Of a DNA stretch of 56,423 nt, positions 2,679 to 56,423 are shown one piece after another. Below the pieces are notes generated by a model. The model did no database searches. It was given only the letters and a program-made list of their open reading frames with translations, and was not told the DNA's origin. Numbering within the stretch: position 1 is the stretch's first letter; each line of letters opens with the position of its first letter. The position numbers and the translations under genes are program-made. The stretch covers positions 1-56,423 of IMG/VR virus record IMGVR_UViG_3300024344_000016, one strand, 5' to 3'. This stretch comes from a virus.

Positions 2679-2680
2679 GC

Positions 2681-2985: not shown

Positions 2986-3019
2986 CCCCTATCGTCAACA
3001 ATTCCAAAAGTTTGTTGCA

Positions 3020-3091: not shown

Positions 3092-3126
3092 GTTTGTTTC
3101 CTTGTGTTGTCTCTTGTATGTCCCCC

Positions 3127-3154
3127 ATTATACATAGTATCGGCCAAACGTCAA
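3127..3154 (-). promoter_or_regulatory. sigma70-type early promoter
   Basis: Leftward promoter: TTGACG at 3154-3149, a 16-base spacer containing GGCCGATA, and TATAAT at 3132-3127. It is the first promoter of the leftward early array. Confidence 0.85.
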
Positions 3155-8181: not shown

Positions 8182-8506
8182 TGTCTATGTACTAGGGCAC
8201 CGTTACGTCATAGAGTCTATGTCAGAGTCCTTATACAAAGAAAGAGAAGCCTATGGAGACTGTTGCAATGAGCAAAAAAGAATTCGGATATACTGCGGTG
8301 TCCACGAGTCCCTTGTAAGAGACACGTTATATCACGAGATTCTACATGCCATGTGGGCACTTTGCTATCTTGCGGGGTGCGATGAAGAAAACACAGTGGC
8401 CCGTCTAGCTACGGCTTGGATAGGATTTTTAGATGACCCACGAAATAAAAAAATTAAGCAGATAATTACGGAAGGTTTTGATGGAAAAACGGAATCAAGC
8501 CCTTGA
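8126..8506 (+). CDS. HExxH metallopeptidase-like protein
   Basis: 126 residues. A zinc-protease signature HEILH stands in RDTLYHEILHAMWALCYLAG near residue 70, followed by helices. The basic start (QSKQPKSKAKK) suggests nucleic-acid contact. Small proteins of this shape near phage terminases are common but uncharacterised; SprT-like or ImmA-like proteases share the motif. Whether it cleaves anything cannot be told. It overlaps the ERCC4 gene (56 bases) and the terminase gene (26 bases). Confidence 0.6.
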   Translation: MTQSKQPKSKAKKISLPSDVYVLGHRYVIESMSESLYKEREAYGDCCNEQKRIRIYCGVHESLVRDTLYHEILHAMWALCYLAGCDEENTVARLATAWIGFLDDPRNKKIKQIITEGFDGKTESSP

Positions 8507-34300: not shown

Positions 34301-37300
34301 AGATACGCTTGCTAAAGCGATTAATACCGTTGTAACAGAAGCTGAAACTGCGGCCAAGACGAAAGGCGTCATAGCGACATGGATGTCGACGGCGGCGGAG
34401 AAGATGAAGGCCGCCACGATGGGGATTATGATTGTTGTGATGGTAGCGGCGATTGCTGCAATGATAGCCTATATGAAGGCGATATACCAAACAACCAAAG
34501 CTGTAACAGCGTTGAAGCAGATGGTTTCTAATCTGAACGACGCTGCGGATTCAATGATTGAAAATCTTAAAGAATCTGGCACAGGTACCGAACAAGAATT
34601 CGTTGACGCAAGAAGCGGGGCTGCTGTAAAAGAATTTGAAGCCGCCTTGATCGACTCGGCTAAGTCAAGCATAGCTTGGAGTGAAGCCGCGTATGTCGGC
34701 GGCTCCAGCCTCGCGGCGGGACTCGCTGCGATTGCTGCTGCTGGTATGTTAACGTCATGGACTGGGGTTGGCCTCGCGGTAGCTGGTGTGGCAACAGCTT
34801 TATCGTTTGCTGTAACGATGCTTTACAACAGTGGAGACAGGGTAAACAAGGCTATGGGCGAAGTTATTAGTGCCCAAGAACAGCAGGCTCGGAAGATAAT
34901 GGCAATCTCTGCTCTCCAAGCTGTCACTACGTGGAGGGCCGTCAAGGCACTTCAGGGATTTGAAACTGCCCTAAAGGACGCGGAAAAAGCTGGGCTGTCT
35001 GCCGGTGAACAGCTAATAGTAATAGGCAACGAAAGTAAGGGTCTGGTCGAGGAATACGAGGCTGGCCAGCAGAGAATGGCGGCTGCGAGTACGGGGCGGG
35101 CAGATTTACAGAAAGAGTTGGAAAGTAGGGGTGTCCTTACGGCAGGGGGAACGGAGATAGAAGGGGCAGACACAACAGGTCAGGAAGAAAACCTTGCGGC
35201 CTACAAAGAGATAACTAAGCAAGAGCAAGAAGCCCGCAAAGCACAAAACGATTTGCTAAATCAAATCCTTGCTCAAGAGGCACAGGTTCGTCGAAAACTC
35301 CAAACCGCTGTTGGAGAGCTGGTATCTGACCTGTCCAAAACAGCTCCTCAGAAACTCAATAAAGTAACCAATTTTGATCAACTACTGAAAGCGGATAAAG
35401 ACTTCCAAGACCAATATAAGAAGGGTATCGAGACAGTCAATGCCGCTATTGACCTGTCATTCAAAGCCCGCATAGAGGAAGCTAAAAAACTTGGCCAAAC
35501 AACAAAGGCCGCAACTCTAGAAGCCCAGAGAGACAAACAGAAAGCCATTGCTGATGTTCAGGTTCGCAAGGCTGCGATGGAGAGGGTGCTTGCCGAACAA
35601 AAGGCCAGACAGGCGATTCTCCGTAATGAGATAGTCATGCGTGCTCAGAGAAGAGCAATAGAAGATGTAAACACCACGATGGAAGGTTTTAACAACACTC
35701 TTCTCGGAGCCACCAATACTGCCGCTGCCTTTGCTGCTATCGACCCAACGATTGCTCTCGCTCAGGGGAAGGGTCCAGACGCCGCCACGTTCGATACAGA
35801 CGCTCTGTCCGTTCCCTTTAGCCAGATCGATCCCAAGATTCTTGACAAGGCTCTGGAACAGGGTGTGTCTGGAATAACAATGGGTATTGGTTCTAATGTG
35901 CCCGGTGGTGGTGACGCTGTCGACAAGGAAATTGAAGATAGAGCCAACCGCATAAAAAAGAGGGTACAGACTGTTCATGGGCTTGTTGACGCAATTCCCG
36001 ATGCCTTGGGCAAACTTGTCACGCAACCAATGCCCATCGATACCGCTGGTGTCAAAGCTATGCAGAGTAAGCTGTTCAAAGATATAAATAAGGCTGTCGG
36101 CGGCGGCTTGACGACGGGTGGCGTAGCCAATGAGCTGGGCACCATTGTACAAGAAGGCATCAATGAGCTGATTGACAAGGGAGAGCCTATCACTATGGAG
36201 GCTATCCAAAATCTCGTTGGTGATATTGAAGGTTTCGGAGAAGAGCAACTTGAAGCGTTCAAGAGAAGTATTGAAATTCAGAATAAGTTCTTGACTGAAA
36301 TCGACAAGATCAATTCTGCGATAATTGAAGCCGAAATGAAAGTTGCGGAAGCTTTTGGAAAAGTGGCAGACACCCGCTCTCGCGTGGCAGACAGGCAAGA
36401 ATCTGCCGTTCAGGGGGGCCGTGTATCGACAACCGCCACAGATATTCGTGCCGCTAGACAAAGAAGAGAGCGTGGAAGAAGGGCCGGAGCACAGCAGAGA
36501 CTCGGTACAGATGCGTTGGCTGCGGGAGCCAGAGCTGGCGATGTGAATGCGACGACGAACGCACTCAAACAGCTTCAGGCACAAGCCAAGCAAAATGCCG
36601 ACGCAGCAAGAACCGAAACCGATGCACTGAAGAAGGCGGGACTAAATGATGCGGCAAAAAGAAATGCAGCCGCAGCAAACCGTGCAACCAAGGAATTGGA
36701 GCGGCTTGCAAACCAAAGTGCAAGGGCCGCCGATATAGAGAAGGAGCTTGCTGCCGAAAGAGCGAGCAGAAAGCAGGTCGGACAGGTAGTTGAAGATTTT
36801 GCCTTTGGCTCTGATGAGGAGCGGGTAAATATGGGGCAAGCGTTTGCAACCACGCAGCTCGCCATCAATCAGGGCGGCATACAGAATGCGACATCGGAAG
36901 AAAGAGCACAAGTTGCTTCGGTTCTGGACAAGCTGAGTGACGTGGAAAATGTTGGGGGCAGTGGTAAAACGGGTGCTGAACTTAAAGCCCAGTTTGCAAG
37001 AGACGAGGCTGTTGCTCAGGGAATAGATCCAGCAATTGCTGATGCACTTCTTAAGCCTAGCAAGTCAGAACAACAACTTCTCAAAGAACTCAACCAGCTT
37101 GGTAAAGATGAGATTGCGGCTGCGAACGCTTTGGCTGAAAACGCTAAATCTCAGGTTCAGCTTTTGGAGGATATTAGGGATGAGTTGAAGAACAACTTTG
37201 AGAGGGATATTAACCGAGGACAAAGACAGGGTACACAGGCCAGTAATGCAACACAGCAGAGAAAGCAAGACGCGAAGGTTCTCAAGGCATACAATAAAGT

Positions 37301-39659
37301 TACAAAGGCTGTAGAAAAAACGTCAAAAACAGTAGAGAATCTAGACAAGACATTAACTACTCTTCAGGCTGAGTTTGCAGCACTTACCGAAACACTCAGA
37401 CAGCTCAATGATCCAGACAGCAAAGAAGCTAAGAAAGCGAAGGAACAAGATCAGGACGAGTTCGCGGCTTCGGCTGGTGGACAGGCACTTGCCACTATAA
37501 AAGACCAAGAGCAGGAAATGCGTTTTTCTGCCAATCAGGAGGGTGAGGGGTTTGTGGATGCCACAATGATAGCAGAAGAGAGGACGAAGCGTAGAGGTGG
37601 CGAGACCATCTCGCAGGAGGAGGGACAAGCGGCAAGAGATGAGAGAGCACGGATAATGACTCCAGAAGGTGAGGGCTTCACTGAAGGTAATATGGAGCTG
37701 GCAGACATGGGTACACCAGAGATCGCTCGGGCAGTTGCGGCGAGCATGGAGGGCAGTAGGGTGGCCGCAAGATCCGCTATAGGCACAGAGGAAGAAATAG
37801 CGGCAAGTCCAGAGCTACAGAAGCAGGCAGCGGCTTTGGAAGCCCAATTCCAGAGGGCGGTTGAGTTCGTTACCCAGAGACTCACTGGTATCCAAGAAGG
37901 AACCATAGAGTCCCAGTCTGGTGTTTCCGCAGGTAGCGGAGAAATTGCATCCGGTGATTTTGCTGGTGAGTTCGCGGACGGTATGACGATGTTCAGACAG
38001 GGAGCTGAAACCATCCTGAAGGCAGCCGAAGCTAACAAGGTTGCGGAAGAAAAAAGGAAACAGGCCGAAAAGCAGGCTGCCGATACCGCCGCAGGCAAGG
38101 CTCGGGGAGGTCTTATTTACAGAGCCGCTGGTGGAAGTATCTTCCAACCAAAGGGTACAGATACAGTTCCGGCTATGTTGACGCCCGGCGAGTTCGTGAT
38201 TCGTAAATCCGCAGTTGACAGGATTGGTGTTGGTGCTCTCTCTGCATTAAATAACGGTGTTGCTTATCACGCACAGGGTGGTGTTGTGGGTCTGCCAGAA
38301 GCGGGTGCTGCTGGACACGCCTTTATGGAGACTGTTGCTCAGGGAAATAAGGGTAATATGATCAAGTCTCTTCAGGTGGGCTTTGGTATGGGTGGTGCAG
38401 ACGCAAACAAAGCGTGGAAATACTTGGTTTTCCTGTCCAAGAAAGGTAAACTTGACTCTTCAAAGCTTGCTGGCTATAAGGACTTGGACGCTTCTCTGGA
38501 TATACTAAGGGCGACCGATGCACTGGAGTCGATTGGTGCCGGTTTAGGGGCAACTATTTTCAAACCGCTACAGGTGAACGACGTATACCCACTTGCCGCA
38601 GGTGCGTGGCAACCCAAAAAGGGTCCAACCGACGAGGCCAGAAAAAAGGTCCAAACCGTTATATCTAGATCACAGGCTCGTAGAGACAAGCTTAATAAGC
38701 TGTTGACTGATCTGACGAACGTGCAGGGCACGAATAGTGCGGGGCAGTTATTTGCTGGCGAGCTGGTATTTCAGGGCGGGTTTACAGCACAAAATATGTT
38801 CGATCAAATCCTCGACATATCTACTGATGTCGGTGCCGAACTTGTCCGCGAAAGAGGTAGATATGCCAGTATGGATACACAGTTCAAGCAGGCTGGTGAG
38901 ATTGATCCGAAGGGGAAGCCCACGGTAGCGGCGGTGGCTGCATGGACAAACCTGACTGGCGGTGGTGGTTTTGGGCCAATTTCCCAAGCGGCCAATGTTC
39001 AGACAGCGGCGGAGACAGCCAAAACCGCCAGAGACAAGGCGGCTCTGAAGGAGGATGCCACAGAGGGTATGGACGCCAGAGAGAGAAGAGCTTGGGAATG
39101 GCTGAACACTGCGGGAGTTTTGACACTAGCTAAAGGTGGATCTGTAGGTAACGTTCTCGATAGTGTTCCTGCGATGCTTACGCCGGGCGAGTTTGTCATG
39201 AGTCCCGAAGCGGTTAAAAAGCATGGTGTTGGGTACATGCGTGACCTCAACAGGGGTCGTGTTCCGGGCTTCAGGAGAGGTGGACTTGTTGGCCGTGGAG
39301 TTGCTTACAGAGCTAATGGAAGTTCAGGCCCAGAGTCTGGCGGTGGTGCGGTCTTGCAGATAGATCCCAGTCTTCTTCAGGGAGTTTTAGATAATTTTAA
39401 TGCACTCTTTAGCCAAAACCTCGATAATATAGTATCAAGCTTCTCTATGGTTAGTTCGTCAATGGATAACTTGGCGACAGCACTTGGGCAGCCCATCACA
39501 ATGAATCATAACTTCTCAGGAGACATGTCACTTGCCTTTAAGATCGAGAATGCCGATCATATCAAGAAGAGCTTTGCCGAAGCGATCACCCCAACACTGA
39601 CTAAGATTATAAGCGAAGAAGTTGACAAGAAGCTTAACGACATGAAAAATAACCCATAA
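28320..39659 (+). CDS. tail tape measure protein
   Basis: 3779 residues, the length ruler of the tail. Residues 1-420 carry the usual helical tape-measure domain (FEREMIRISQVTGNSVSQLE; FRTIFTRLQ). Four TPGEF modules (VPAMLTPGEFVI-like) start near residues 481, 979, 3281 and 3615. Segments near 600-645 and 860-925 look like PD-(D/E)xK nuclease folds. Residues 1326-1591 are nineteen 14-residue helical repeats. Hydrophobic stretches near 2030-2055 and 2134-2168 may cross the host membrane during DNA entry. The end is a short coiled segment. SD AGAAGG. Confidence 0.9.
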   Translation: MAERFNLTAQLQLQAPTNTAQVVNQINRDLGSVTINANIQADAKSLSAVSGQLKAVEKTAKSSSASMSNLNRNIAEAARRFSVITIATGSFIGLARAIKNSVGAAVEFEREMIRISQVTGNSVSQLEGLGKEVTRLSTSLGVANQSLLETSRILAQAGLSALKTKQAMEVLANTTLAPSFDNIIDTTEGAIAILNQFGREAAKTGQDIQFLEQALDAINKVSKTFAVESKDLITAVRRTGGVFEAAGGSLNELIALFTSVRQTTRESAETIATGFRTIFTRLQRKETLEALDQLGISLSDVNGKFIGPLKAIEALANGLAGLDPKDVRFNEIVEQLGGFRQIGKVIPLIKQYAVAEQALSVANSSAGDTAKDARIAQQSLAVQFQKVREQFDALMRKFADSETFRSLAGTVLQLAEAFLKFAAALEPILPMLTTLAAIKIGRSLAPGLAGLFGGGGGGKQFGGVVSKFASGGWVPGTGNRDTVPAMLTPGEFVIKKSSARKLGEDQLSSMNRYAGGGVASHKEGKPYVSFADQTFFKKKGQTFQNSPAGRRGATKFNENDDFAYDLDVENVELHKVSPKKLEGVPAWKEYTQAAASLNDQARGLAFERVLEGLGRVKLTGGNSRIDGMVGSQVTEIKSLREGLDESNLNNKMLGAAVNPLSSVDRNVVPKLTNTQLTDQKNTVDLGSLKVLRDKTKVDLDKKAAKQLEEGGGKGAGNIKGAQLSLGRERQKMFGGIIQKFAEGGIAKAKKVGAAILDADTAQPDDTAKVTVDEINKKFPAFKNLKKGASPVSQLYKSTDFSIIRQGLSESTSKNFQQALNDGLVSGTDAATAALASDLGTGASTIDEGSKQNFIKTVRPAIRGDLFEAALLAMNNKGTFDDALDPGRPFDFPGGLKGSLKDNWSNMPSAWVDAKSSYEAAGSANMKGKIVKQIVNELKAQGVEEMETGTKKDKEARAARAAQQNEAKKRNKGGSVWGTDSVPSLLTPGEYVINKSSAQSIGYGNLNKMNQTGVARFASGGLVGVSKFADGGPVGGIDKNVASVDLSQFAREAPKAAQMMAQFTKGLADAYVGMTAYKQAIADGQTEAEALNMASSAVEKAMYKVEPEYKAAVESNKKLTAEQEKVSSTSKLLEADLKHESAALKQKAAIDQKYHALRQQGIPALAARKIAIEAQIEQDGVLLQTKQRLNAALAGRADEAAAGGGGGAGAGAGGGGGGMMNLDFGKIQSGLDKFATKVEGTGNVLSRLGSGLIGVSFMAGTLIQGMGGLSDAQKEQEQAGLAAAAAHGAVILEAGSFAIQLAAGTARILSNLAAKAQEFQATQAAAASELEEAAANVASSSTEQEEAIANTLSATSEQGETVANTASTASEYAEFGANVASSASEMSEVVANASAVTSEMGEVAANALAVSSEMTEVGANFQAAMSEMAEVGANAKAVIAEMSEVAANATAVQAEMAEVTANAAAVQAEMAEVAANSAAVEAELAEVQANALAIRTEFQEAVANVQAARTEDAESAMNAMAVKAEGEELIANQQAARLEYVEAQANSMAARLEYQEAGANQLAVQSEQAEVQANALSIQSEGTKQAANARTVQALAFLMVEAAKVNQSFMHLVVAMGATWQNMAALSTHTRTAAIESAFLAQGLGLTIPEIEALGMAAAQASSQLLTGVGGPAAIGAAPAAGAAPVAGHIAGPARMALPAPGAGSVLGGAGAGAASSAELTAFTANLTGANVALEQTTAGLLTSNTTTNTKTAADETAVATTAMRVNADESLIAATAGLDTSLIGTEISAAQAAAAQEFFATATSSTAGTAGLLGVNLDKTAISTMLAGTGMEGLSISAMAAELGMSETALASLLMANASTASATELMAAGAAADLMAVAQGGAATNAGLLGVSLGSADAAATAQVAGSTALIGANEAAAISGAQVAVSNAGVEVTNAGLIASGLGASVAQDGVMIAASGAGTALGAIGVEAAALGLGLNGALIALLANSLGVNADTLAKAINTVVTEAETAAKTKGVIATWMSTAAEKMKAATMGIMIVVMVAAIAAMIAYMKAIYQTTKAVTALKQMVSNLNDAADSMIENLKESGTGTEQEFVDARSGAAVKEFEAALIDSAKSSIAWSEAAYVGGSSLAAGLAAIAAAGMLTSWTGVGLAVAGVATALSFAVTMLYNSGDRVNKAMGEVISAQEQQARKIMAISALQAVTTWRAVKALQGFETALKDAEKAGLSAGEQLIVIGNESKGLVEEYEAGQQRMAAASTGRADLQKELESRGVLTAGGTEIEGADTTGQEENLAAYKEITKQEQEARKAQNDLLNQILAQEAQVRRKLQTAVGELVSDLSKTAPQKLNKVTNFDQLLKADKDFQDQYKKGIETVNAAIDLSFKARIEEAKKLGQTTKAATLEAQRDKQKAIADVQVRKAAMERVLAEQKARQAILRNEIVMRAQRRAIEDVNTTMEGFNNTLLGATNTAAAFAAIDPTIALAQGKGPDAATFDTDALSVPFSQIDPKILDKALEQGVSGITMGIGSNVPGGGDAVDKEIEDRANRIKKRVQTVHGLVDAIPDALGKLVTQPMPIDTAGVKAMQSKLFKDINKAVGGGLTTGGVANELGTIVQEGINELIDKGEPITMEAIQNLVGDIEGFGEEQLEAFKRSIEIQNKFLTEIDKINSAIIEAEMKVAEAFGKVADTRSRVADRQESAVQGGRVSTTATDIRAARQRRERGRRAGAQQRLGTDALAAGARAGDVNATTNALKQLQAQAKQNADAARTETDALKKAGLNDAAKRNAAAANRATKELERLANQSARAADIEKELAAERASRKQVGQVVEDFAFGSDEERVNMGQAFATTQLAINQGGIQNATSEERAQVASVLDKLSDVENVGGSGKTGAELKAQFARDEAVAQGIDPAIADALLKPSKSEQQLLKELNQLGKDEIAAANALAENAKSQVQLLEDIRDELKNNFERDINRGQRQGTQASNATQQRKQDAKVLKAYNKVTKAVEKTSKTVENLDKTLTTLQAEFAALTETLRQLNDPDSKEAKKAKEQDQDEFAASAGGQALATIKDQEQEMRFSANQEGEGFVDATMIAEERTKRRGGETISQEEGQAARDERARIMTPEGEGFTEGNMELADMGTPEIARAVAASMEGSRVAARSAIGTEEEIAASPELQKQAAALEAQFQRAVEFVTQRLTGIQEGTIESQSGVSAGSGEIASGDFAGEFADGMTMFRQGAETILKAAEANKVAEEKRKQAEKQAADTAAGKARGGLIYRAAGGSIFQPKGTDTVPAMLTPGEFVIRKSAVDRIGVGALSALNNGVAYHAQGGVVGLPEAGAAGHAFMETVAQGNKGNMIKSLQVGFGMGGADANKAWKYLVFLSKKGKLDSSKLAGYKDLDASLDILRATDALESIGAGLGATIFKPLQVNDVYPLAAGAWQPKKGPTDEARKKVQTVISRSQARRDKLNKLLTDLTNVQGTNSAGQLFAGELVFQGGFTAQNMFDQILDISTDVGAELVRERGRYASMDTQFKQAGEIDPKGKPTVAAVAAWTNLTGGGGFGPISQAANVQTAAETAKTARDKAALKEDATEGMDARERRAWEWLNTAGVLTLAKGGSVGNVLDSVPAMLTPGEFVMSPEAVKKHGVGYMRDLNRGRVPGFRRGGLVGRGVAYRANGSSGPESGGGAVLQIDPSLLQGVLDNFNALFSQNLDNIVSSFSMVSSSMDNLATALGQPITMNHNFSGDMSLAFKIENADHIKKSFAEAITPTLTKIISEEVDKKLNDMKNNP
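32295..33092. repeat. 14-residue repeats in tape measure
   Basis: Nineteen in-frame units of 42 bases with the pattern SEM-x-EV-x-ANA-x-AV (two heptads per unit). Units 9-11 are nearly identical at the DNA level. This looks like expansion by slippage or unequal recombination in a coiled-coil rod. Confidence 0.8.
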
Positions 39660-46719: not shown

Positions 46720-47484
46720 GTGGGATATAAAAACTACACTATCAGAGGCAAGACTGACGGCTTTGGCTGCCAGTATAATGCCAAGCTGTCTGGACTCGCT
46801 TTTTGCTTGAATAGCGGAGGCTGGCCAACTCAGTACCGCTATATTCATACGCCCTTCGCCACCGTCTCTCATGGCTGGCGAAAGGAAGATAGGGTTGCAC
46901 AACTTAATGAGTTTATCGGAATTCCCGATAACCGTATTGGCAAAAGAATACACGTTCCCAAGAAATTTGAGACCAAGGTATTCAATGACCCCAACGCTTT
47001 CTATAATTCATCGGTACTAGATACTATTAGGGAGTATTATTGGTCCACCCCTAAGCCACAAGACTCGGAAAACGAGATAGTGGTTCACATCCGAAGGGGC
47101 GACGTTCAGCCACATAATGGGGGAGATCGTGCCAGACGCCACCTGCCTAACGTTTGGTACAATACTCAAATTCCCGATATTGTGTCTAGATACCCCTCTC
47201 ACTACAAGATAACTATCCACTCCGAGGGAGAGATGCCTGAGTTTGAGTCTATTACAGATGGCTGGCCTCAAGATATAGTAGACAGGACCGTTTTCAAGCT
47301 TGATACCTGTTTGACGACCGCTTTTCATGAAATGGTTACAGCAAAGGTGTTACTTATGAGTAAAAGTGGGTTTGCCTACACCTCTGCAATTCTCAATACC
47401 AACGATATATTTTTCGTCCGCAGCGGGGCTAGGGGACAGAAAATCCCTCTCGGTCATTGGATCAGAACTCCGTGGGGAGGGTGA
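46720..47484 (+). CDS. fucosyltransferase-like glycosyltransferase
   Basis: 254 residues, GTG start at 46720 with AGGA upstream. The segment VVHIRRGDV fits the HxRRxD motif of alpha-1,2, alpha-1,6 and O-fucosyltransferases (GT11/GT23 type), which use GDP-fucose. A further YKITIHSEGEMPEF and MVTAKVLLMSKSGFAYTSAI follow, the usual SDDxx and S-x-x-S region. The start has GFGCQYNAKLSG, like the G-x-G-NQ beginning of GT11. GDP-mannose dehydratase in the same genome could feed it. The donor is not proved. The next gene begins one base after its stop. Confidence 0.55.
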   Translation: MGYKNYTIRGKTDGFGCQYNAKLSGLAFCLNSGGWPTQYRYIHTPFATVSHGWRKEDRVAQLNEFIGIPDNRIGKRIHVPKKFETKVFNDPNAFYNSSVLDTIREYYWSTPKPQDSENEIVVHIRRGDVQPHNGGDRARRHLPNVWYNTQIPDIVSRYPSHYKITIHSEGEMPEFESITDGWPQDIVDRTVFKLDTCLTTAFHEMVTAKVLLMSKSGFAYTSAILNTNDIFFVRSGARGQKIPLGHWIRTPWGG

Positions 47485-47485
47485 T

Positions 47486-48286
47486 ATGATATTAAACAGA
47501 ATGTTAGTTGGAACAAACAGCGGAATCGGAGATTGTATCTTAATGAATGGTGCAATCCGACACCTAGCAGATATATTTGACTCTATTTCGGTCTTGGTTA
47601 TTGGTCCGCATAATACGTGTCGTCAAATTACACATATGTATAGGGATAATGATAGTATCGATGTGCTTGGCGAGCCTCCTGCACGTACTTTTTGGCAGGG
47701 CGATAAGAAGAGGCGAATTTGGGCAAGCAGGCATCCAAACTGGCATATACGAACATTCTGGTGGCCAGTAGGTAAATTCGTGTACCACGCCGTGGAATGC
47801 GGGCTTAATCCTGAAACTAATTGCTGGCCAGAGTTGTTCTACACTTATGTGCTGGGTGGCGGCGACCCCCAAACTATGGGGTATGAACGTAGATATGAAA
47901 ATTTTTATGTTGAAAGAGATTATGCTAGGGAAGACATTTTAAAAAAAAGACTTGGATTACCTGCGGATTATGCCTTTGTTGTGGATAAAGGAGAACCCAG
48001 TTCGTCTCACTTTCACATCAAACCTGAGACAAAGTTCCCCATTTTTAAGCCGCACTACAGGGCGGATCTTTTTGATGAATATACCATATTTGACTGGATG
48101 GGTGTTATAGAGGACGCAAGAGAGATCTATACAATCGACACTGGGTGGCTACATCTTATGAAGCAAATGCGACTAGATAAACCCAAGTTCTATTTCGACA
48201 AGCTACGCAGACCACTGTCTAACACCACAGAAACCAGATATCTCAATGACGACTGGGACAATGGCTGGAAAGTGATGGACATATAG
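47486..48286 (+). CDS. GT9-like glycosyltransferase, paralogue 1
   Basis: 266 residues from the ATG at 47486, with GGAGGG upstream; a much longer frame begins inside the previous gene and is rejected. It opens with NSGIGDCILMNGAIRHL, like the Gly-rich start of heptosyltransferases (GT9). Conserved blocks with the next two paralogues are CWPELFY, LPADYAFVVDKGE, TIFDWMGVI, IYTIDTGWLHLMK and YLNDDWDNGW. It probably transfers a sugar from a nucleotide donor, with the C-terminal half binding the donor. The stop overlaps the next start (TAGTG). Confidence 0.55.
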   Translation: MILNRMLVGTNSGIGDCILMNGAIRHLADIFDSISVLVIGPHNTCRQITHMYRDNDSIDVLGEPPARTFWQGDKKRRIWASRHPNWHIRTFWWPVGKFVYHAVECGLNPETNCWPELFYTYVLGGGDPQTMGYERRYENFYVERDYAREDILKKRLGLPADYAFVVDKGEPSSSHFHIKPETKFPIFKPHYRADLFDEYTIFDWMGVIEDAREIYTIDTGWLHLMKQMRLDKPKFYFDKLRRPLSNTTETRYLNDDWDNGWKVMDI

Positions 48287-49077
48287 TGAATCTTTTTCTT
48301 GCACATAATTCAGGGCTAGGCGACTATATCCTAATGAATGGTGCCGTGAGGTATTTGTCATCACTAGATGAGATAGAAAGCATCGTTTATTTGTGTCAGA
48401 GTACGCCCAATAAGTTTAGACATCTTGTTCGTATGTATGGTGGAATGGATAAGATAAGGCTCATTGAAGAGAAACAGGGAAGCGGATTCACTTCACAGAG
48501 AAGAAAAATACGCATATGGGGAAAGAGATTCTCCGATCATGAGTCAAGAGCGTTCGCTTGGAATGCAGCCTTCTGGGAGCCTTCTATGGAGATTCGGGGA
48601 TTAGATCCAAACAGAGATTGCTGGCCGGAACTTTTCTATTCTGTGCTTGGAGCACCCTACTCAGCTAGACACGAATATTTTCATATACATAGAAATCTCA
48701 AGAAGGAGGCGAGTCTCACAAGAAGTCTTAGGCTGCCTGTGGATTATGCCTTTTGCGTAGACCGAGGTGCCAGACCGAATTTCAACCTTTCGCCACCAAC
48801 CAACCTTCCAATCATCAAGCCTCACGATTATCCCGAGATTTTGCATGAGTATGATATTTTCGATTGGATGGGCGTTATCTCTGGGGCATCAATAATATAC
48901 ACAATTGATACAGCGTGGATGCACTTAATTAAATCTATGAGACTGAACGTCCCCAAGTTCTATTATCACATGCGGGGCGACTACGTCAAAAACGTATTCA
49001 CGAGCTGTTATATCAATGACAAGTACGATAATGGATGGGAAATTGTTGATAAGCATGGAGCTATTCTGTCTCAGTAG
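48286..49077 (+). CDS. GT9-like glycosyltransferase, paralogue 2
   Basis: 263 residues with a GTG start at 48286 that overlaps the previous TAG. It shares with its neighbours NSGLGDYILMNGAVRYL at the start, CWPELFYSVLG, LPVDYAFCVDRG, YDIFDWMGVI, IYTIDTAWMHLIK and YDNGWEIVDK. The spacing of the blocks is the same. The stop codon is followed with no gap by the stop codon of the convergent paralogue at 49078, so the two transcripts meet head to tail with no terminator between them. Confidence 0.55.
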   Translation: MNLFLAHNSGLGDYILMNGAVRYLSSLDEIESIVYLCQSTPNKFRHLVRMYGGMDKIRLIEEKQGSGFTSQRRKIRIWGKRFSDHESRAFAWNAAFWEPSMEIRGLDPNRDCWPELFYSVLGAPYSARHEYFHIHRNLKKEASLTRSLRLPVDYAFCVDRGARPNFNLSPPTNLPIIKPHDYPEILHEYDIFDWMGVISGASIIYTIDTAWMHLIKSMRLNVPKFYYHMRGDYVKNVFTSCYINDKYDNGWEIVDKHGAILSQ

Positions 49078-49917
49078 CTATTTCAACCAGTATCCATTTT
49101 TTAGCTGGTGCCCAGTAGCCTCCATTTTGATCCATCCGCCCTCATATTCATCATTCAAGTACTCTGTGCCATGTATCCACTTTTCTCCAGTATTTGGATC
49201 GTTCCACCAGTATTTGGGTATGTTTAGATTGAGGGTCTTGATCAAGTGAAACCAGCCCGTATCAACTACATGTAGCTCGGAAGCCCTTTCTATAACTTTG
49301 AGCCAGTCAAAGATAAGGGTCGCGTTCCAATCATAGGGTTTTCCCGACCAAAGCTGGTATTCTCTGGGATTAACGATAGGAAGCGTTGTGTCTGGGTGAC
49401 ATCTGAACGAATACTTTCTCCCCTCGTCTACCACAAAGGCGTATTTGCTAGGCAAGTTAAGAGACTCAAAGAGAGCCTCCTCTCTTTCAGCGTCCCTGTC
49501 TAGTCTATACTCGGTATGACGTTTTTCGTAAGGCACATTTTGCATAGCATAAAAAAGACGTGGCCACGAAATATTGTCTACATCAAGCCCGTGGTTGCTA
49601 ATGTTTTCTATCCAGAGATGTTCTTTGGTTATATACTTACGAGCAAAGGGTTCAAATTTAATGCGGGGGTTGTCTCGTACTATTTCCTCGTAGGATGCGT
49701 TCTGTCTAAGCATTGCCTGACGAGCACTTTTAGGATGGGGTTTAGCATATGGTATAATGCTGTCGTCGTTTCTGTATATCCACTCAACATGTCGCAGTCT
49801 CGAATCCCAACACAACAGATAAACCCTATCAAACTTTTCCGCTAAACACCTAGTCGCCCCGTTTAAAACGATGTAATCGCCTAGTCCAGTGTTGTGACAG
49901 ACCACGATACCATTCAT
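49078..49917 (-). CDS. GT9-like glycosyltransferase, paralogue 3
   Basis: 279 residues, on the opposite strand to its two relatives. It has the same blocks: NTGLGDYIVLNGATRCL, SWPRLFYAMQN, LPSKYAFVVDEGR, LIFDWLKVI, LHVVDTGWFHLIK and YLNDEYEGGW. It is longer by a short insert near the end (NDPNTGEKWIHG). It is the last gene of the leftward operon and overlaps the GT2 gene before it by ATGA. The donor is unknown. Confidence 0.55.
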   Translation of the reverse strand: MNGIVVCHNTGLGDYIVLNGATRCLAEKFDRVYLLCWDSRLRHVEWIYRNDDSIIPYAKPHPKSARQAMLRQNASYEEIVRDNPRIKFEPFARKYITKEHLWIENISNHGLDVDNISWPRLFYAMQNVPYEKRHTEYRLDRDAEREEALFESLNLPSKYAFVVDEGRKYSFRCHPDTTLPIVNPREYQLWSGKPYDWNATLIFDWLKVIERASELHVVDTGWFHLIKTLNLNIPKYWWNDPNTGEKWIHGTEYLNDEYEGGWIKMEATGHQLKNGYWLK

Positions 49918-50519
49918 GTTATATAATTGATCAACTTTAGGGGTGTATAGTATAGGGTATATTGTGAACTTTTAACAATAGACTGACAGAAGACTCCATC
50001 CTCTCCACAGGACATATCCTCTCGGTACTTGATGTCCGATAACACTTCCTTCCTTGCTGACATGTGGCCGTGACAAATTGGCAATCTTGAGGGTGCCTCT
50101 ACATTTGTAGATGGAAGCGGGTCTGTCTTTACCACTTTTTCAATATGGGTATCCTTTACAGGATCAAACTCCCGTAGACCCATGTTGTAATTATGAACAA
50201 GAGCATCTATTTCTTGTGACTGAAAGATATTTTTGATAACCTCACATTTTTGTGGGTGAATAATATCATCGACATCACAAAAACAAACAACGTCACCGGT
50301 TGCTAGTTCGCCGCCCTTGTTTCTAGCTCCCCCTGCCAGCATCCTGTTTTCAAAGTGATAGACCTTGATGGTAGGATCGGCACAGCCTAGAGACTTTAAT
50401 CCACTGGCAACTACTAGTATTTCATCCGGTTCCGTTGTTTGCATTTTGATGCAGGATAGAGAGTACTCCAAAAGATGAGCGTCTCCGTCGTAGCATGTTA
50501 TACAGAATGAGACTTTCAT
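49914..50519 (-). CDS. family 2 glycosyltransferase
   Basis: 201 residues, GT-A fold. The start (VSFCITCYDGDAHLLEYSL) and DEILVVASG fit the UDP- or GDP-binding strand of GT2 enzymes. CFCDVDDIIHP has the metal-binding DxD in the form DVDD, and MLAGGARNKGGELATGD is the usual G-ARN-G segment before it. Near the end SCGEDGVFCQSI gives the ED-x-F catalytic motif. It is short, so probably only the catalytic domain. It overlaps its neighbours (start directly at the previous stop, ATGA at the end). Confidence 0.75.
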   Translation of the reverse strand: MKVSFCITCYDGDAHLLEYSLSCIKMQTTEPDEILVVASGLKSLGCADPTIKVYHFENRMLAGGARNKGGELATGDVVCFCDVDDIIHPQKCEVIKNIFQSQEIDALVHNYNMGLREFDPVKDTHIEKVVKTDPLPSTNVEAPSRLPICHGHMSARKEVLSDIKYREDMSCGEDGVFCQSIVKSSQYTLYYTPLKLINYIT

Positions 50520-50774
50520 CTAGTCGGACAATAGGTTTTTGACCTTATTGTTAACGGCCTCCTCTGCGTCTCTCTCAGAAACTACAGTAGAGTCTCTGAC
50601 ATAGGTTTCGTGTATCAGATTTGAGATGTCGCCTCTAGCGATAGGTAGGTCTCTCGTTGGAAAATTATGCACATAACAATTAGTATGCACCTTCTCGTCC
50701 TTCCAGACACTCACGGTGACAACATATCTATCGTGTTCGTTCAGATTATCTATAGCTTCTATTCTGCTTGTCAT
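50520..50774 (-). CDS. 84-residue protein, unknown
   Basis: Leftward gene with ATG at 50774, directly after the stop of the zinc-ribbon gene. It has mixed charge, with a beta-rich centre (HDRYVVTVSVWKDEKVHTN) and a helical end. No family is recognised. It lies between the zinc-ribbon protein and a glycosyltransferase and is transcribed with them. Confidence 0.6.
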   Translation of the reverse strand: MTSRIEAIDNLNEHDRYVVTVSVWKDEKVHTNCYVHNFPTRDLPIARGDISNLIHETYVRDSTVVSERDAEEAVNNKVKNLLSD

Positions 50775-51104
50775 TTATTCGACCGCCTTGGTTTTAGGGT
50801 TCCACTTGGTCCAGCCCTTGTCTGGAAGCCATTCGCCTTCAGAATCTTTTCTTCGAGGAAATAGTCCACCACCCTTTTTGTTAACCCCAAAGGCTAGCTT
50901 TGCCCCGCAGTCTAAACATCTCAGTTCATGGTATTCATTTCCATCATTTTCGCGAACCACGAATCGGAGGTTCTCCGACCCGCACTTGCCGCAGGCTGTT
51001 TCTCCAAAAACCTCCTGAAAGGCACCCAGTTGTGCGAACAGTTCTTTTGGTGTATCAACATTGAACTCTACCGACAGCTTGCCTTCTCTGTAGACTACTT
51101 TCAT
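50775..51104 (-). CDS. zinc-ribbon protein
   Basis: 109 residues with a TGGAGG site before the ATG. Residues about 38-65 hold two knuckles (CGKCGSENLRF, then LRCLDCGAKLAFG) as in a zinc ribbon. The end (KDSEGEWLPDKGWTKWNP) is rich in Trp and Asp. Proteins of this shape are often found next to single-strand annealing or binding proteins in phages, as here. It may bind single-stranded DNA, which is an inference from the neighbour. Confidence 0.6.
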   Translation of the reverse strand: MKVVYREGKLSVEFNVDTPKELFAQLGAFQEVFGETACGKCGSENLRFVVRENDGNEYHELRCLDCGAKLAFGVNKKGGGLFPRRKDSEGEWLPDKGWTKWNPKTKAVE

Positions 51105-51106
51105 TT

Positions 51107-51874
51107 TTACCTCCAGTTGGAATCATATCCCTGCATAGACTCTGGGATATCCTTAGATTTATTTTGATACTCGTTTAACACCCCTAGCATTTTAGAGGCC
51201 GTCTTTTTACCTATATCCTTGATTGAGTCATAAGAGTCGGTTCCTGAATCAATGAACTTGAGCACATCAATATCCAGTTGTTTGCATTTTGCATCGATGA
51301 AATTGATTTGAGGTTCACTGATAGAGTCCTCTTCTTTCCACTCCCCATCCGTAGGCACTTGTACCGTTTGACGTACAATTGCCGCAACGTCCTTCTTTCT
51401 TGTAAGTTCTTCTGCCGCCAAGCATTTGACCTTTAGTGCTTTCCTTAAAGCTCGTCCCTCTGCTCGCGTGCTTGCTGTTGCCGCCGGATGGGCACAGAAT
51501 AGATCGTCTGTGTTCCCATGCCAAACGTCTGCAACGTCTGCAAAAGTCCTGTACTGTCCAGAATCCATCCAGTCAATAACAACCTCAAATACAACAGTCG
51601 CTCTACCCGGTCCATCGGGGTCGGTAGCTGGAAATACTTGGGTAGGTCGGCTACTTACTATTGTCCCTAAGACCTCTTCTGCCACACGACGAAGTCCCGC
51701 ACAAACAGGATTGCCGTCAATGAGTTCGCGGTCTTCAAATTTGCTCATCACATATTCGTTCCAATTCTCAGAACCATATGCTGGCATCAAATCCTCGCTC
51801 TCCTTAACGCCCTCCTCTTCAGCGATTCCTTCCTTGATGCTCTCAACATCAAATAAGTCCAAATCTTTTCCCAT
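51107..51874 (-). CDS. Rad52-like ssDNA-annealing protein, candidate
   Basis: 255 residues; the ATG overlaps the stop of the preceding gene (TAATG). The middle resembles phage single-strand annealing proteins: a beta-rich TVVFEVVIDWMDSGQYRTF, then PAATASTRAEGRALRKALKV, a small-residue helix found in Rad52-type DNA-binding cores. The C-terminal end (ISEPQINFIDAKCKQL; KIASKM-like helix) resembles the tail that other annealing proteins use. It would promote recombination and repair. The call is from pattern memory, not a search. Confidence 0.5.
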   Translation of the reverse strand: MGKDLDLFDVESIKEGIAEEEGVKESEDLMPAYGSENWNEYVMSKFEDRELIDGNPVCAGLRRVAEEVLGTIVSSRPTQVFPATDPDGPGRATVVFEVVIDWMDSGQYRTFADVADVWHGNTDDLFCAHPAATASTRAEGRALRKALKVKCLAAEELTRKKDVAAIVRQTVQVPTDGEWKEEDSISEPQINFIDAKCKQLDIDVLKFIDSGTDSYDSIKDIGKKTASKMLGVLNEYQNKSKDIPESMQGYDSNWR

Positions 51875-52647
51875 TATTTAATCTCCAGTTCGATAAATCT
51901 CTTGTCCTTCGGTGGAAACTTGTCCTTCACTGCTCCCACCTCGGTCGAAACCAAATCCCACAGTTTTCGCTCCACGCTTTTATTCATGTTTCTGCACAAA
52001 TATTTTACTCTAATAACGCAAAAGCCCTTAGAGATAAGTAGGCCGTTTTTTATGCTATCCATTTTGATCGTGTTCGACAATTTGTCCGCACCAAACACGG
52101 GCAAGAAATGCTGCGGCCCGTCTACCTCTATTATAGTATTGAGTTCTGGCAAAAGCAAGTCAATTTCAAAATTTCCTTCAATTAATCCTTTTTTATGCAT
52201 GACCACTTCGTAGCCAGCTTCTTCCAGTTTTTCCTTGAGAAACTTTTCTTGCTTCGATCCCTCCAGACACGCTAAACGCAATGCCCTACCAGCCTTCTCT
52301 TGCATCTCTCTCCTTTTTTCGGGAGACATGTTGTCCCACCTGTTTTTTGCAGATTTGCAAAACTTCTTTTTTTCAGCTTCGGGCATTTCTCTCCACGCCT
52401 TCTCGACACCCATGCTGATCTTGGTTTTCTCTTCTTCAGTTCGCTTCAGCCCCTTAGTTGGATGTTTGGCCCGTCCGTTCTGGATGGCTAGCGACTGAGA
52501 TTCCGATCTGCTTCTGAGGGTGTGCCCGTTTTTCTTGAGGATTCTTTCTATCTTTTTAGGATAAGTCTCAAGCTCCTTGGCTAGAGAAATTGTGCTGTGA
52601 CCCTCTGTATATTTCTTGATCACATATGATTCATCTATATTCTTCAT
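51874..52647 (-). CDS. Vsr-like homing endonuclease
   Basis: 257 residues from the ATG at 52647 (GGAGG upstream; a TTG four codons earlier overlaps the previous stop). Residues 1-100 look like HTH and NUMOD-type DNA-binding modules: YVIKKYTEGHSTISLAKELE, then HPTKGLKRTEEEKTKISMG and two basic KKFCKSAKNRWDNMSPEKRR repeats. The C-terminal 130 residues form a Vsr/DUF559-like nuclease: FEIDLLLPELNTIIEVDGPQ followed by H and later LISKGFCVIRVKY. Free-standing mobile nucleases like this spread by cutting a neighbouring allele. Confidence 0.7.
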   Translation of the reverse strand: MKNIDESYVIKKYTEGHSTISLAKELETYPKKIERILKKNGHTLRSRSESQSLAIQNGRAKHPTKGLKRTEEEKTKISMGVEKAWREMPEAEKKKFCKSAKNRWDNMSPEKRREMQEKAGRALRLACLEGSKQEKFLKEKLEEAGYEVVMHKKGLIEGNFEIDLLLPELNTIIEVDGPQHFLPVFGADKLSNTIKMDSIKNGLLISKGFCVIRVKYLCRNMNKSVERKLWDLVSTEVGAVKDKFPPKDKRFIELEIK

Positions 52648-52648
52648 C

Positions 52649-53767
52649 TTAACCTCCAAAAGTATTTATTGCGTCTACAATGTGCAATATTTCTTGGTCC
52701 TTTAAAAAAGGGTGGATGGGAAGACTCACCATTCTTTCGGCATATTCTTCCGTTCTAGTTAGTTGTGTCTCAACCCTTCTGTAGAACGGCATTTTATGTA
52801 TTGGTACTGGGTAGTGGATGCCGCATTCTACATTATTATAATCCAAATGCTTCATAAACGCATTTCTATTTTCAGAATCTTTGAGTAAAACCGGTAATAT
52901 GTGATACACCTGTAGAGTATTGTCGGTCAACATCCACGAAATTCTATCATTATTTATTTGCGATCTAATTTTATTTGCCGCGATAGATCTGGATCTATTC
53001 CACTCGTCTAGTTTCCGAAGCTTCCAATAGAGAATTATAGCCTGTATGGAATCTAGTCTGTGATTATGCCCAATGCCCTCGTGTACGTATTTTTCTACCG
53101 ATCCGTAATTTCGGAGCAGCCTACACCTTTCGGCTATCTTCTCGTTGTTTGTCACTATTATCCCAGCGTCTCCAGCGGCTCCCAAGTTCTTACCGGGATA
53201 CAGAGAGAAAGCTGACACATCACCCACGCTACCAGCAACCGTACCTCGGGGGGATTTGGCACCGTGTGCCTGAGAAGCGTCTTCCAGCAATAAACAATCG
53301 TACTTTGATGCGAGATGTCGTATTTTATCAACAGCATCGCAGCATCCATACATATGGACGGCCACCACTAGACAGCTTCCGGCTAAACGTGGCTGCGACA
53401 AGTATCGCTCAAGTTGACTGGTATCCATTTGCCCATTTTGATCTACGTCAACCGGTTCGATTAGTGCATCAGGGTACGCTTCCTTTATAGCTAGCCAAGT
53501 CGCTACGAATGTATTAGCTGGCATAAAAACCAAGGGGCACCCCTTTAATTCTAACGCTTTTGCGGCCACTTTTATAGCATCCGTTCCGTTGGAAACCCCT
53601 ATCCCATGCTGAGAGCGGCAGTATTCAGCAAAAGCTTCCTCAAACCTTTTGACTTGAGGGCCGAGTATAAATTGGGAAGTGTAGAACAGTTCTCGTATTT
53701 CTGGAACCGCCTGTTCTTCTATCTCTAGCCATTGTGCGTTGAGGTTGTTAAATTTAACCTGATTCAT
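52649..53767 (-). CDS. DegT/DnrJ-type sugar aminotransferase
   Basis: 372 residues. PLP-dependent enzyme of the DegT/DnrJ/EryC1/StrS family, which aminates a keto-sugar bound to a nucleotide. Seen: GVSNGTDAI (phosphate-binding), LEDASQAHGA at about 161-170, and SLYPGKNLGAAGDAG with the PLP lysine at 193. YPGKNLGAxGDAG resembles C3-acting enzymes such as FdtB/QdtB more than PerA. NHRLDSIQAIIL follows. The gene overlaps the oxidoreductase gene by 14 bases, so the pair probably acts in order on one sugar. SD AGGGAG. Confidence 0.85.
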   Translation of the reverse strand: MNQVKFNNLNAQWLEIEEQAVPEIRELFYTSQFILGPQVKRFEEAFAEYCRSQHGIGVSNGTDAIKVAAKALELKGCPLVFMPANTFVATWLAIKEAYPDALIEPVDVDQNGQMDTSQLERYLSQPRLAGSCLVVAVHMYGCCDAVDKIRHLASKYDCLLLEDASQAHGAKSPRGTVAGSVGDVSAFSLYPGKNLGAAGDAGIIVTNNEKIAERCRLLRNYGSVEKYVHEGIGHNHRLDSIQAIILYWKLRKLDEWNRSRSIAANKIRSQINNDRISWMLTDNTLQVYHILPVLLKDSENRNAFMKHLDYNNVECGIHYPVPIHKMPFYRRVETQLTRTEEYAERMVSLPIHPFLKDQEILHIVDAINTFGG

Positions 53768-54611
53768 ACAGACTCCCTGTTATGTGGAGGCTCAAGTCTT
53801 TTTGCTCAGGCCCCCAGTCTCCATTTAAAAAGTTGGTGATAGAACTGTGTAGCGGGGACTTTGGTTCTATCGGTATAACATCGTTTCCATAAAGGATCGT
53901 AGACGTATTGTCGTCCCAATGCAGAAAAGAATTTTCGTTTGCGTTAAACTCTAGGATATACATTCTGTTCTTCATCCCATAAGACCAGCTTGCGTTGATT
54001 TGCATACTGGTTTCTGAAAATTCAAGAACCCCCACTGTACTGTCGTCTTGGTCAGAGTTTTTGTCTCTTTTGAAGTCTAGCCACTCAGATCTCACGGGTG
54101 CTTCGTCTAATAAGTAACAACCTATTGAAACGTCATGTGAAGCTAAATCCCATCTGGCATTAACATCGGTACGAACAGGGCCGAAGTTCATCCTGTTAGC
54201 TATTATACTTTTCGGCTTTCCCAATCCTCCAATCAGGGTTTTGATTTTTTGTACCGCCGGGTTGTAAGTAAATAACCAGTCTACAAACAATCTTGAGTTA
54301 TGTTTGTCCGATATTTCATACAGCTTTTGACAATGTTTCAGATTTGTGTCTAATGGTTTTTCACAAAATACATCAATACCACGCTCTAGGAAGTGTCTGC
54401 AAACTTCGTAGTGGCTTGCCACTGGAACAATCACAAACACAGCATCGCAGGACAGCTTTCTGTAATCGCGAACCTGCCTGTATTTCTCTCCTATCTCGTG
54501 CCAGTCTACATCTCTTTGTTCGCACACGACGATATCTCTGTGTCCCAGTTCCCGTAGGTTTCTGAGGATCACCTTGCCCCAGTGTCCTAGTCCGACTATA
54601 CCTATTTTCAC
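53754..54611 (-). CDS. Gfo/Idh/MocA sugar oxidoreductase
   Basis: 285 residues from the GTG at 54611, chosen because GGAAGG lies upstream and the GTG overlaps the previous stop as GTGA; the longer frame from 54701 lies inside that gene. It begins VKIGIVGLGHWGKVILRNL (NAD-binding GxGxxG), and VFCEKPLDTN is the EKP motif that sets the nicotinamide and catalytic Lys. It probably oxidises a nucleotide sugar and, with the aminotransferase, makes a 3-amino sugar (WbpB/WbpE-like logic). The substrate is not known. Confidence 0.8.
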   Translation of the reverse strand: MKIGIVGLGHWGKVILRNLRELGHRDIVVCEQRDVDWHEIGEKYRQVRDYRKLSCDAVFVIVPVASHYEVCRHFLERGIDVFCEKPLDTNLKHCQKLYEISDKHNSRLFVDWLFTYNPAVQKIKTLIGGLGKPKSIIANRMNFGPVRTDVNARWDLASHDVSIGCYLLDEAPVRSEWLDFKRDKNSDQDDSTVGVLEFSETSMQINASWSYGMKNRMYILEFNANENSFLHWDDNTSTILYGNDVIPIEPKSPLHSSITNFLNGDWGPEQKDLSLHITGSLYESG

Positions 54612-55717
54612 TTTAAATCCTTCCCGCTTAACTCTCTTTGTCGATAATCGTATTCGGTAGCTTTTATCGCCTGATAGATATTGAAACAAACGTTTCGCCA
54701 CCTGAGAGGATTGAGGTCCATATTCCTGATGTTCTGTAGCATATGAATCCTGTAATCGTCATCTCTAATACATCTATCTAGGTCATCTTTTAATTTTATA
54801 GGGTCAGTTAAGATGCACGTTTTATAATTATGACGCTCAACAAAATCTCCGTATATATTTTCCATCAGGGGTTTTGAATTTTCTACCCAGTTTGGTTCGT
54901 GAATAACTACAGGAATGGTTCCTACGAACCAGCTCTGAAGAAATCTTAGGTTATGCAGCCATAAAGCATGATTCGGTATGATTTGAAAAGACGCATCCCT
55001 GACTTCTCGACTGAGATCTGCATATGAGATCTCAGACTTCCTGCCCCTGTGAAAAATTCTGTATTCAAATTCGGGAGAATCCTTAACTACCGCCCACGCT
55101 GCCGATAGTGCTTTTGCTCTATCGGGCCACACACCTACATGCCGAGGGCTATATGCACATATTCCTGTTTTGGTTTTTTTAAGTGGGTCAATAGGGTAGA
55201 TTCCCTCTTTTTCAAGCTTGTAGTCTATGAAATCTGTGAAGTACACACTTTGCATACCAGATATCCATTGTTCTCTGGCACATGAGTATAAGACAACAGT
55301 ACCATTCCTTCCTATCTTATCTAGAAATTTGTGATGAGCGGCACACGAGTCCCTTCCCCCAAAAACTCGACCTCTGTGTCTGTTGGGACTATACACAGGT
55401 TCGTCAAGCATGAAAACCTTATATCTGTAATTTGCGAGAAAGTCCCACTCAACACACCTTCTGTATGTTGCCAGATCTTCTGTCAATATTATTTCAGCTT
55501 CAGAGTCTAGCATGTCTCGATAGCTTCCGTCCTCTTTAGCAATATCGTATTCTCCACAAACATCGAAAAATCCAGAATCTCTAAATATATCAGGGTTGCA
55601 GCGTGAACGGCCCCACTTATTCGTTTTGTATATAACATCAACCTTAAGCTTCTTTTCAGACAACTCTGGGTTGCTATATTTTCTCTTTATTTTTTCTTCT
55701 GTAAAGACAGGAAACAT
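54608..55717 (-). CDS. glycosyltransferase-like protein
   Basis: 369 residues, ATG at 55717 with TAGGAG upstream. The C-terminal half (FQIIPNHALWLHNLRFLQSW, then FVGTIPVVIHEPNW) resembles the donor-binding part of exostosin-like GT-B enzymes (family form G-IPVV). The N-terminal half has acidic loops and several Trp and Tyr residues. It is in the sugar operon beside the oxidoreductase (GTGA overlap). GT10-type fucosyltransferases end in a related way and are an alternative. Confidence 0.5.
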   Translation of the reverse strand: MFPVFTEEKIKRKYSNPELSEKKLKVDVIYKTNKWGRSRCNPDIFRDSGFFDVCGEYDIAKEDGSYRDMLDSEAEIILTEDLATYRRCVEWDFLANYRYKVFMLDEPVYSPNRHRGRVFGGRDSCAAHHKFLDKIGRNGTVVLYSCAREQWISGMQSVYFTDFIDYKLEKEGIYPIDPLKKTKTGICAYSPRHVGVWPDRAKALSAAWAVVKDSPEFEYRIFHRGRKSEISYADLSREVRDASFQIIPNHALWLHNLRFLQSWFVGTIPVVIHEPNWVENSKPLMENIYGDFVERHNYKTCILTDPIKLKDDLDRCIRDDDYRIHMLQNIRNMDLNPLRWRNVCFNIYQAIKATEYDYRQRELSGKDLK

Positions 55718-55725
55718 ACCGACTC

Positions 55726-56423
55726 CTACACAATACCAAGAGAGGTGTTAGTCTGGGATATACTTTTGTCTTTGGTGCACACACCAACAGCCGCTCTAAT
55801 AGCATCGATATTTTCTGGAACTACGTCGCTTTCTTGATGAACAGCTTGCATATACAGTAGCTTGTTGCCCCACACACCTATGGTATCGCTCCATACGCAG
55901 ATCTCTGGCATGTCGCCTCTTGGTCTGCCTATATCTTTGGCGTATTCCATTATTTCGGCTGTTGATCTGATTCCGTCCGAATTATGAACGACCCGAACTC
56001 TAGTCGTGCTTTCAAACAGGGCGACCACATCTTCAACCCGAACCTCTGAGCGTAGGTCTGCCGCAATACTATGCATATGCATAAGGGTGGTGGGGACTGA
56101 CACAGAGGTGGTGAAAATTTCCATGTCTGTCAGGATAGTGCGAACATCTGGGCCGTGGTGAGAGGGAACTACCAAGTGTGGAACCAATGCATTAACGGGT
56201 CCATGATATATGTCCCACGGATCGGCTGCTCTTCTAATCATAGTCGCGTGTACTTTTTCTACTCCGTATGTATCATCCAAAACCGATAAGGTTCTACATA
56301 ACCCTGTCGTGTTACAGCTAACAACCCTAATAAAGTTTTCGTTAAGACAATCGTTATAATTACATTGAGCAACAAAACTCTTGCCCACCTTTGGCTTTTC
56401 TCCCCCTTGGAATATGGCCTTAA
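55726..56423 (-). CDS. gap: type II (archaeal-type) GAPDH, C-terminal part
   Basis: 231 visible residues; the frame stays open to the window edge, so the apparent GTG at 56388 is internal. It is the C-terminal two thirds of the archaeal-type glyceraldehyde-3-phosphate dehydrogenase (NAD(P) enzyme, about 335 residues). Seen: AIFQGGEKPK, then the catalytic Cys in VVSCNTTGLCRTL, the active-site His region in VPSHHGPDV, VSVPTTLMHMHS, and NSDGIRSTAEIMEYAKD with MQAVHQESDVVPENIDAIRA near the end. All catalytic residues remain. Its place in a phage sugar operon is surprising. Confidence 0.85.
   Translation of the reverse strand, partial: KAIFQGGEKPKVGKSFVAQCNYNDCLNENFIRVVSCNTTGLCRTLSVLDDTYGVEKVHATMIRRAADPWDIYHGPVNALVPHLVVPSHHGPDVRTILTDMEIFTTSVSVPTTLMHMHSIAADLRSEVRVEDVVALFESTTRVRVVHNSDGIRSTAEIMEYAKDIGRPRGDMPEICVWSDTIGVWGNKLLYMQAVHQESDVVPENIDAIRAAVGVCTKDKSISQTNTSLGIV

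Follow-up and report, generated by a model that had tools for sequence, protein, structure and literature searches.

The window, as we call the whole stretch of DNA analysed, comes from IMG/VR, where it is a virus record 56,423 bases long; it ends in a gene which by family is a type II (archaeal-type) glyceraldehyde-3-phosphate dehydrogenase (GAPDH), with enzyme activity predicted. The minus-strand ORF at 55726-56421 stays open from its stop codon at 55726 up to the window edge, confirming the intact frame of the original prediction, and encodes the C-terminal 231 residues of the enzyme, the 5′ end being truncated at the contig end. The assignment to the archaeal form, also made originally, was upheld by the scores of the fragment alone, which exceeded the cut-offs of both NF003251 (type II GAPDH; E 9.6e-96, 320.8 bits, cut-off 185) and TIGR01546 (GAPDH-II_archae; E 4.1e-94, 315.5 bits, curated cut-off 232.9), and by its PDB matches, which were the archaeal GAPDHs 1cf2, 2czc, 1b7g and 2yyy (E 2e-74 to 9e-64); PF02800 matched as well (E 1.1e-25). 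Relative to the Methanothermus fervidus enzyme, the fragment covers roughly residues 104-335, with the catalytic Cys at fragment residue 36 (M. fervidus C140; codon 56314-56316) and the catalytic His at fragment residue 115 (M. fervidus H219; codon 56077-56079). The claim that all catalytic and binding blocks are present held for these two residues and for the RR, PSHHGPD and HQES blocks, all found in the fragment, but not for the loop that selects the cofactor or the GYGTIGKR dinucleotide motif, since the approximately 103 N-terminal residues that contain them fall past the contig end in this copy; an exact search of IMG/VR found no contig overlapping this end of the window.

GAPDH is followed on the minus strand by a protein of unassigned family (54608-55717, 369 aa), the start codon of which lies 8 bases past the GAPDH stop and for which no match was obtained in Pfam, NCBIfam, PHROG or PADLOC. 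Next on that strand come a Gfo/Idh/MocA oxidoreductase (53754-54701; PF01408, E 1.4e-15), a DegT/DnrJ/EryC1 sugar aminotransferase (52649-53767; PF01041, E 8.8e-82) with relatives in contigs G002 and G011, and three conserved phage genes (51874-52659, 51107-51874 and 50775-51104; gene clusters 33-35). A role of the GAPDH neighbours in anti-phage defence found no PADLOC match. The region 49078-55717 makes up the second surface-sugar group of the window (aminotransferase, Gfo/Idh/MocA, glycosyltransferase), the other being located at 4928-7047 with a pyruvyl transferase and a GDP-mannose dehydratase, and three adjacent paralogous proteins of 263-306 aa, one of them in opposite orientation, are encoded at 47366-49917.

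The plus strand of the window encodes a 174-aa sigma-70 region 2 protein (3623-4147; PF04542, E 5.3e-07, above cut-off; PHROG sigma factor match, E 2.7e-4) with 39% identity to the copy in G011, a terminase large subunit (8478-10457; phrog_2, E 7.8e-23) with 64-65% identity to those of G011, G004 and L019, a portal protein (11545-13656; phrog_2739, E 7.5e-07), a major capsid protein (15765-16769; phrog_2522, E 3.3e-05) that is a distant relative of gp27 of Bacillus phage G (20.7% identity), and a tail tape measure protein of 3779 aa (28320-39659; phrog_4211, E 4.2e-24). The position of GAPDH at the extreme edge of this contig could mean that it is a host fragment or an assembly chimera, or else a decaying passenger gene. 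However, the nearby window genes are phage genes, and those at 50775-52659, a few kb from GAPDH, recur in the GAPDH-bearing contigs G001, G002, G007 and G011; moreover, GAPDH is internal to phage DNA in many contigs of up to 174 kb. In the largest of these, G011, which has 24 gene families in common with the window, terminase and portal among them, the gene is found at 47.5 kb and is flanked on either side by phage genes; phage genes likewise flank it in G003, G004 and other contigs. The end of the window, which had been named as possibly non-phage DNA, is thus phage, and with the purifying selection described below the reading as a chimera or passenger becomes extremely improbable.

Two scans of IMG/VR yielded relatives of the gene in 21 contigs beyond the window; the first gave 19 viral relatives with 68-79% identity to the window fragment, and the second, run with a full-length viral query, gave relatives down to 61%. 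All except one (20/21) are full-length and unbroken, the exception, L014, being truncated by its contig end. The N-terminal dinucleotide-binding half bearing GYGTIGKR was found in 20 of the 21, so that the 5′ half, a break in which had been considered to count against the gene, is intact in the relatives, while that of the window copy lies off the contig. In the alignment, Cys140, His219 and RR were unchanged in 22/22 viral copies. Pairwise Nei-Gojobori estimates (own script), restricted to pairs with dS below 1.5, gave dN/dS values of 0.05-0.18, and the viral GAPDH is under purifying selection. An AlphaFold model of the G002 copy (pLDDT 91.3) had as its best PDB matches the type II GAPDHs 2czc, 1cf2, 1b7g and 2yyy (TM 0.93-0.95), as against a TM of about 0.7-0.77 with type I GAPDH structures; as modelled for this relative, the fold is type II rather than type I. 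Based on the dN/dS values and the G002 model, the viral GAPDH is a folded and selected enzyme whose phosphorylating activity is predicted.

The best 80 GTDB genome matches listed were all archaeal, the first two dozen being Woesearchaeota/Nanoarchaeota with about 53-62% identity, the nearest cellular enzymes among the matches listed, followed by other archaea at about 50%. In the maximum-likelihood tree the viral GAPDHs formed a single clade (support 100/97) within a supported virus plus DPANN clade (100/97), and five bacterial plasmid GAPDHs formed a distant clade of their own (100/100). The phylogeny that the original prediction had proposed as a check thus places the viral clade within or beside DPANN and apart from the bacterial plasmid clade. 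An AU test of a strict origin inside DPANN gave p 0.077, which does not separate within from beside DPANN, and strict nesting of the viral clade within DPANN is not claimed. As judged from the sequences, these results showed that the viral enzymes are one clade with DPANN (Woesearchaeota) affinity, and a closer relative, bacterial or archaeal, may exist beyond the matches listed. Phages would have received the gene from a DPANN archaeon, or from a relative not yet sampled, and it would subsequently have spread among them.

The earlier statement that this form is rare in bacteria needs a qualifier, as 37 bacterial plasmid records matched type II GAPDH, the five treed being a separate clade. The plasmid enzymes (Meiothermus, Rhodococcus, Acidovorax, Methylophaga, Pontibacter) resemble the viral ones in residing in mobile DNA of bacteria but differ in their clade, in their identity to the viral enzymes of about 39-44%, in having NQA where the others have HQES, and in an Asp at position 33. 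These plasmid GAPDHs (L167-L171, from several phyla) are often near glgP, pfkA or AarF/UbiB-like genes and appear as a separate mobile subfamily. A scan with the plasmid subtype found none in viral contigs, and among 50,697 GenBank phage records a single one matched, an unverified 4 kb fragment that groups in the bacterial plasmid clade. This record, L172 (MT839732.1), is a human faecal ‘Bacteriophage sp.’ whose GAPDH nests among the plasmid enzymes, and it may not be phage DNA. That bacteria do hold such enzymes raises an alternative, in which a type II GAPDH like that of Woesearchaeota was present in a bacterial host, the transfer across domains took place in that bacterium and the phage acquired the gene there. 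The GTDB evidence, consisting of the best 80 matches listed, does not exhaust bacterial chromosomes and leaves room for such a donor, yet all of these matches are archaeal and the sampled bacterial copies, five in the tree, are separate and distant; we regard a bacterial intermediate as possible, if unlikely.

With respect to the host, genes for RecA, DnaB, a Toprim (DnaG-like) primase, PhoH and ribonucleotide reductase occur in the related contigs. DNA Pol III alpha was found in G001, G002, G007 and G011 with a model that matches 10 bacterial control genomes and 0 archaeal ones, and PCNA was absent from 14/14 contigs with a model that matches four archaeal controls. The terminase matches were nearly all phages of bacteria, plus two haloarchaeal virus records. 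Because of the sigma-70-like gene together with Pol III alpha, DnaB, primase and RecA, and without PCNA, the phage host looks to be a bacterium on gene content, and the phage of bacterial type originally proposed is borne out by these genes. The bacterial promoters that had been cited for it fared less well, with 27 promoter-like sites in 44-56 kb against 20.4 ± 5.4 in shuffles, an excess that does not clearly surpass chance. An archaeal virus was considered and rejected, as PCNA was absent and replication and transcription genes of bacterial type were found in place of archaeal ones. The closest cellular enzymes among the matches listed being from Woesearchaeota, the phages might still infect DPANN archaea and GAPDH be the host's own gene; this is contradicted by the bacterial-type sigma-70-like and replication genes, by the lack of PCNA in the 14 contigs and by the terminase matches, and also by the patchy occurrence of the enzyme, which was above cut-off in just 21/194 genomes of the DPANN phylum, making a DPANN host very improbable. 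No tRNA genes that might serve as a host clue were found in the window. DUF1501 genes lie near GAPDH in several contigs (L114:16201-17451, G011, G213 and others), with up to three in one contig, and are absent from the window; their best plasmid match was the planctomycete Singulisphaera (30.6%, E 7e-45), and DUF1501 of G001 had no match among the 50,697 GenBank phage records. As DUF1501 also occurs outside planctomycetes, a Planctomycetota host is only a lead.

The surroundings of GAPDH differ among the phages. It adjoins PhoH and a RecA/DnaB block in G001, G007, G008 and L007, lies between a GDP-mannose-dehydratase-like gene and an HNH/terminase block in G003 and G004, comes after a glyoxalase-like gene in G011, belongs to yet another gene cluster in G006, G010 and L006, and heads a run of sugar genes in the window. 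In L111 (IMGVR_UViG_3300008216_004368, 1-5026), GAPDH is convergent with a T4-type Gp23 major capsid gene and also adjoins a Peptidase_S77 prohead protease gene, and no genes besides GAPDH were found in common with the other GAPDH contigs. The L111 capsid shares 76.6% identity with its closest GenBank relative, the capsid of LR756511, a 595 kb uncultured phage in which type II GAPDH was not found. The tree joins L111 in a pair with G010, which belongs to the wider phage group of the window since it shares genes with G011. Because the L111 copy thus sits in an otherwise unrelated phage, GAPDH is, on sequence grounds, a gene that has moved between phage lineages, two of which carry it. A scan with G001 and G011 as positive controls detected no GAPDH in 28 close phage relatives, chosen for the nearest terminases and including contigs of 95, 138 and 148 kb; these are fragments, and single absences among them are uncertain. 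As the scan did not detect the gene in these 28 contigs, GAPDH looks accessory, and it looks to behave as a phage accessory metabolic gene with a predicted metabolic effect.

Some of the neighbouring genes are worth recording. Directly upstream of GAPDH, in two otherwise different contexts, there are one or two short genes (~115 and ~67 aa) whose products have hydrophobic stretches (L115:368-715; homologues in G003, G004, G005, G007, G008, L004, L007 and L008), as if moved together with it. A TnpB/Cas12f-like protein (PF07282; L126:4087-5355) is encoded ~2 kb upstream of GAPDH in G011, and the glyoxalase-like gene of this contig (L126:6916-7422) is immediately upstream. Relatives of the latter are within about 10 kb of GAPDH in G006, G010, G013 and L006, a possible tie to triose-phosphate/methylglyoxal chemistry.

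We then considered the cofactor and metabolic role of the viral enzyme. Many archaeal type II GAPDHs use NADP, and Lys33 of these enzymes presumably contacts the adenosine 2′-phosphate of NADP. The loop past the second strand is (S/T/A)KT(R/K)P in most of the archaeal type II GAPDHs. The viral cofactor loop is mostly TAN(T/S)YNY and that of Woesearchaeota mostly TAH(S/T)YNY; Ala or Gly takes the place of Lys33 in every viral copy readable there, and the residue is likewise non-Lys in Woesearchaeota. The two groups differ at position 34, which is mostly His in the Woesearchaeota/Nanoarchaeota GAPDHs and Asn in the viruses. In both Woesearchaeota genomes examined, the cellular gene adjoins upper-glycolysis genes, following phosphofructokinase and a class II aldolase in L028 and a class I aldolase in L082. 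Because Lys33 is missing and the Woesearchaeota copies lie beside upper-glycolysis genes, a NAD-linked glycolytic enzyme is favoured over NADPH supply, as read from one loop and gene context. The original prediction had suggested NADPH for sugar synthesis, and an enzyme running in the reducing direction or NADP-linked, providing NADPH for surface-sugar or nucleotide synthesis, would suit the same-strand sugar-nucleotide genes after GAPDH in the window and the NADP use of many archaeal relatives. Such a supply is weakened by the absence of Lys33 from all readable viral copies, by the setting of the Woesearchaeota genes and by the fact that the sugar-gene run downstream is found in the window only, the neighbours elsewhere being PhoH, HNH, glyoxalase-like or capsid genes, so that the pairing is not conserved; we judge it improbable.

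Neither PGK nor TIM was found in 14 phage contigs, and no other glycolysis enzymes were found alongside the viral GAPDH. Since PGK and TIM are both lacking from these contigs, the viral GAPDH would have to join the glycolysis of the host on its own. During infection, the NAD-linked enzyme would oxidise glyceraldehyde-3-phosphate to 1,3-bisphosphoglycerate with NAD+, working beside the host's own GAPDH or replacing it, and would keep lower glycolysis going to provide ATP, NADH and 3-phosphoglycerate-derived precursors, with a flux that may be independent of whatever controls the host enzyme, an escape from host control that the original prediction had also raised as a possibility.

Compared with the archaeal type II GAPDHs of known structure (1cf2, M. 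fervidus; 2czc, Pyrococcus horikoshii; 1b7g, Sulfolobus solfataricus), the viral enzymes are alike in family, fold, Cys/His, paired Arg and length, but they are borne by bacteriophages, have the loop TAN(T/S)YNY where the archaeal enzymes have SKTRPDF, and carry Ser, not Ala, at M. fervidus position 210 (21/22 copies). Cyanophages carry the central-carbon accessory genes cp12, talC, zwf and gnd, which likewise change how carbon moves through the central metabolism of the host; those genes target the Calvin cycle and the pentose phosphate pathway, and cp12 inhibits host GAPDH (PMC10452541), whereas here the phage brings its own. GAPDH is also encoded by giant viruses of eukaryotes (Mimiviridae, Phycodnaviridae), there partly as PGK fusions (PMC9270025), in contrast to the stand-alone type II enzyme in bacteriophages described here. 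No paper on type II GAPDH in bacteriophages was found in the open-access literature; the enzyme family itself is known, and what appears new within that literature is that it occurs in bacteriophages, together with the origin and spread described here.

Taken together, the finding is real and well supported: uncultured, tailed phages of bacteria carry, as an accessory gene, a type II GAPDH of the archaeal, DPANN-like kind. The explanation as a whole, a DPANN-derived phage accessory type II GAPDH with a NAD-linked glycolytic role in a bacterial host, we consider reasonably probable. The usual view is that a phage obtains its metabolic genes from its own bacterial host; here, by contrast, the nearest cellular relatives among the matches listed belong to another domain and the enzyme is a central one, and phage lineages whose capsids differ have come to share the gene by transfer. 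The data suggest that a central metabolic gene crossed from archaea into viruses of bacteria, and they would offer a concrete case of archaea-to-phage gene flow, possibly via DPANN cells living near the phage hosts, in which a host enzyme is supplemented by the phage with a distant homologue that may escape host control. A bolder form of this idea, which we hold with considerable doubt, is that phages took GAPDH directly from DPANN and spread it among unrelated phage lineages because the archaeal-type enzyme escapes the controls on the host type I GAPDH; if true, the phages would possess a central glycolytic bypass that regulation does not affect, gained across domains.
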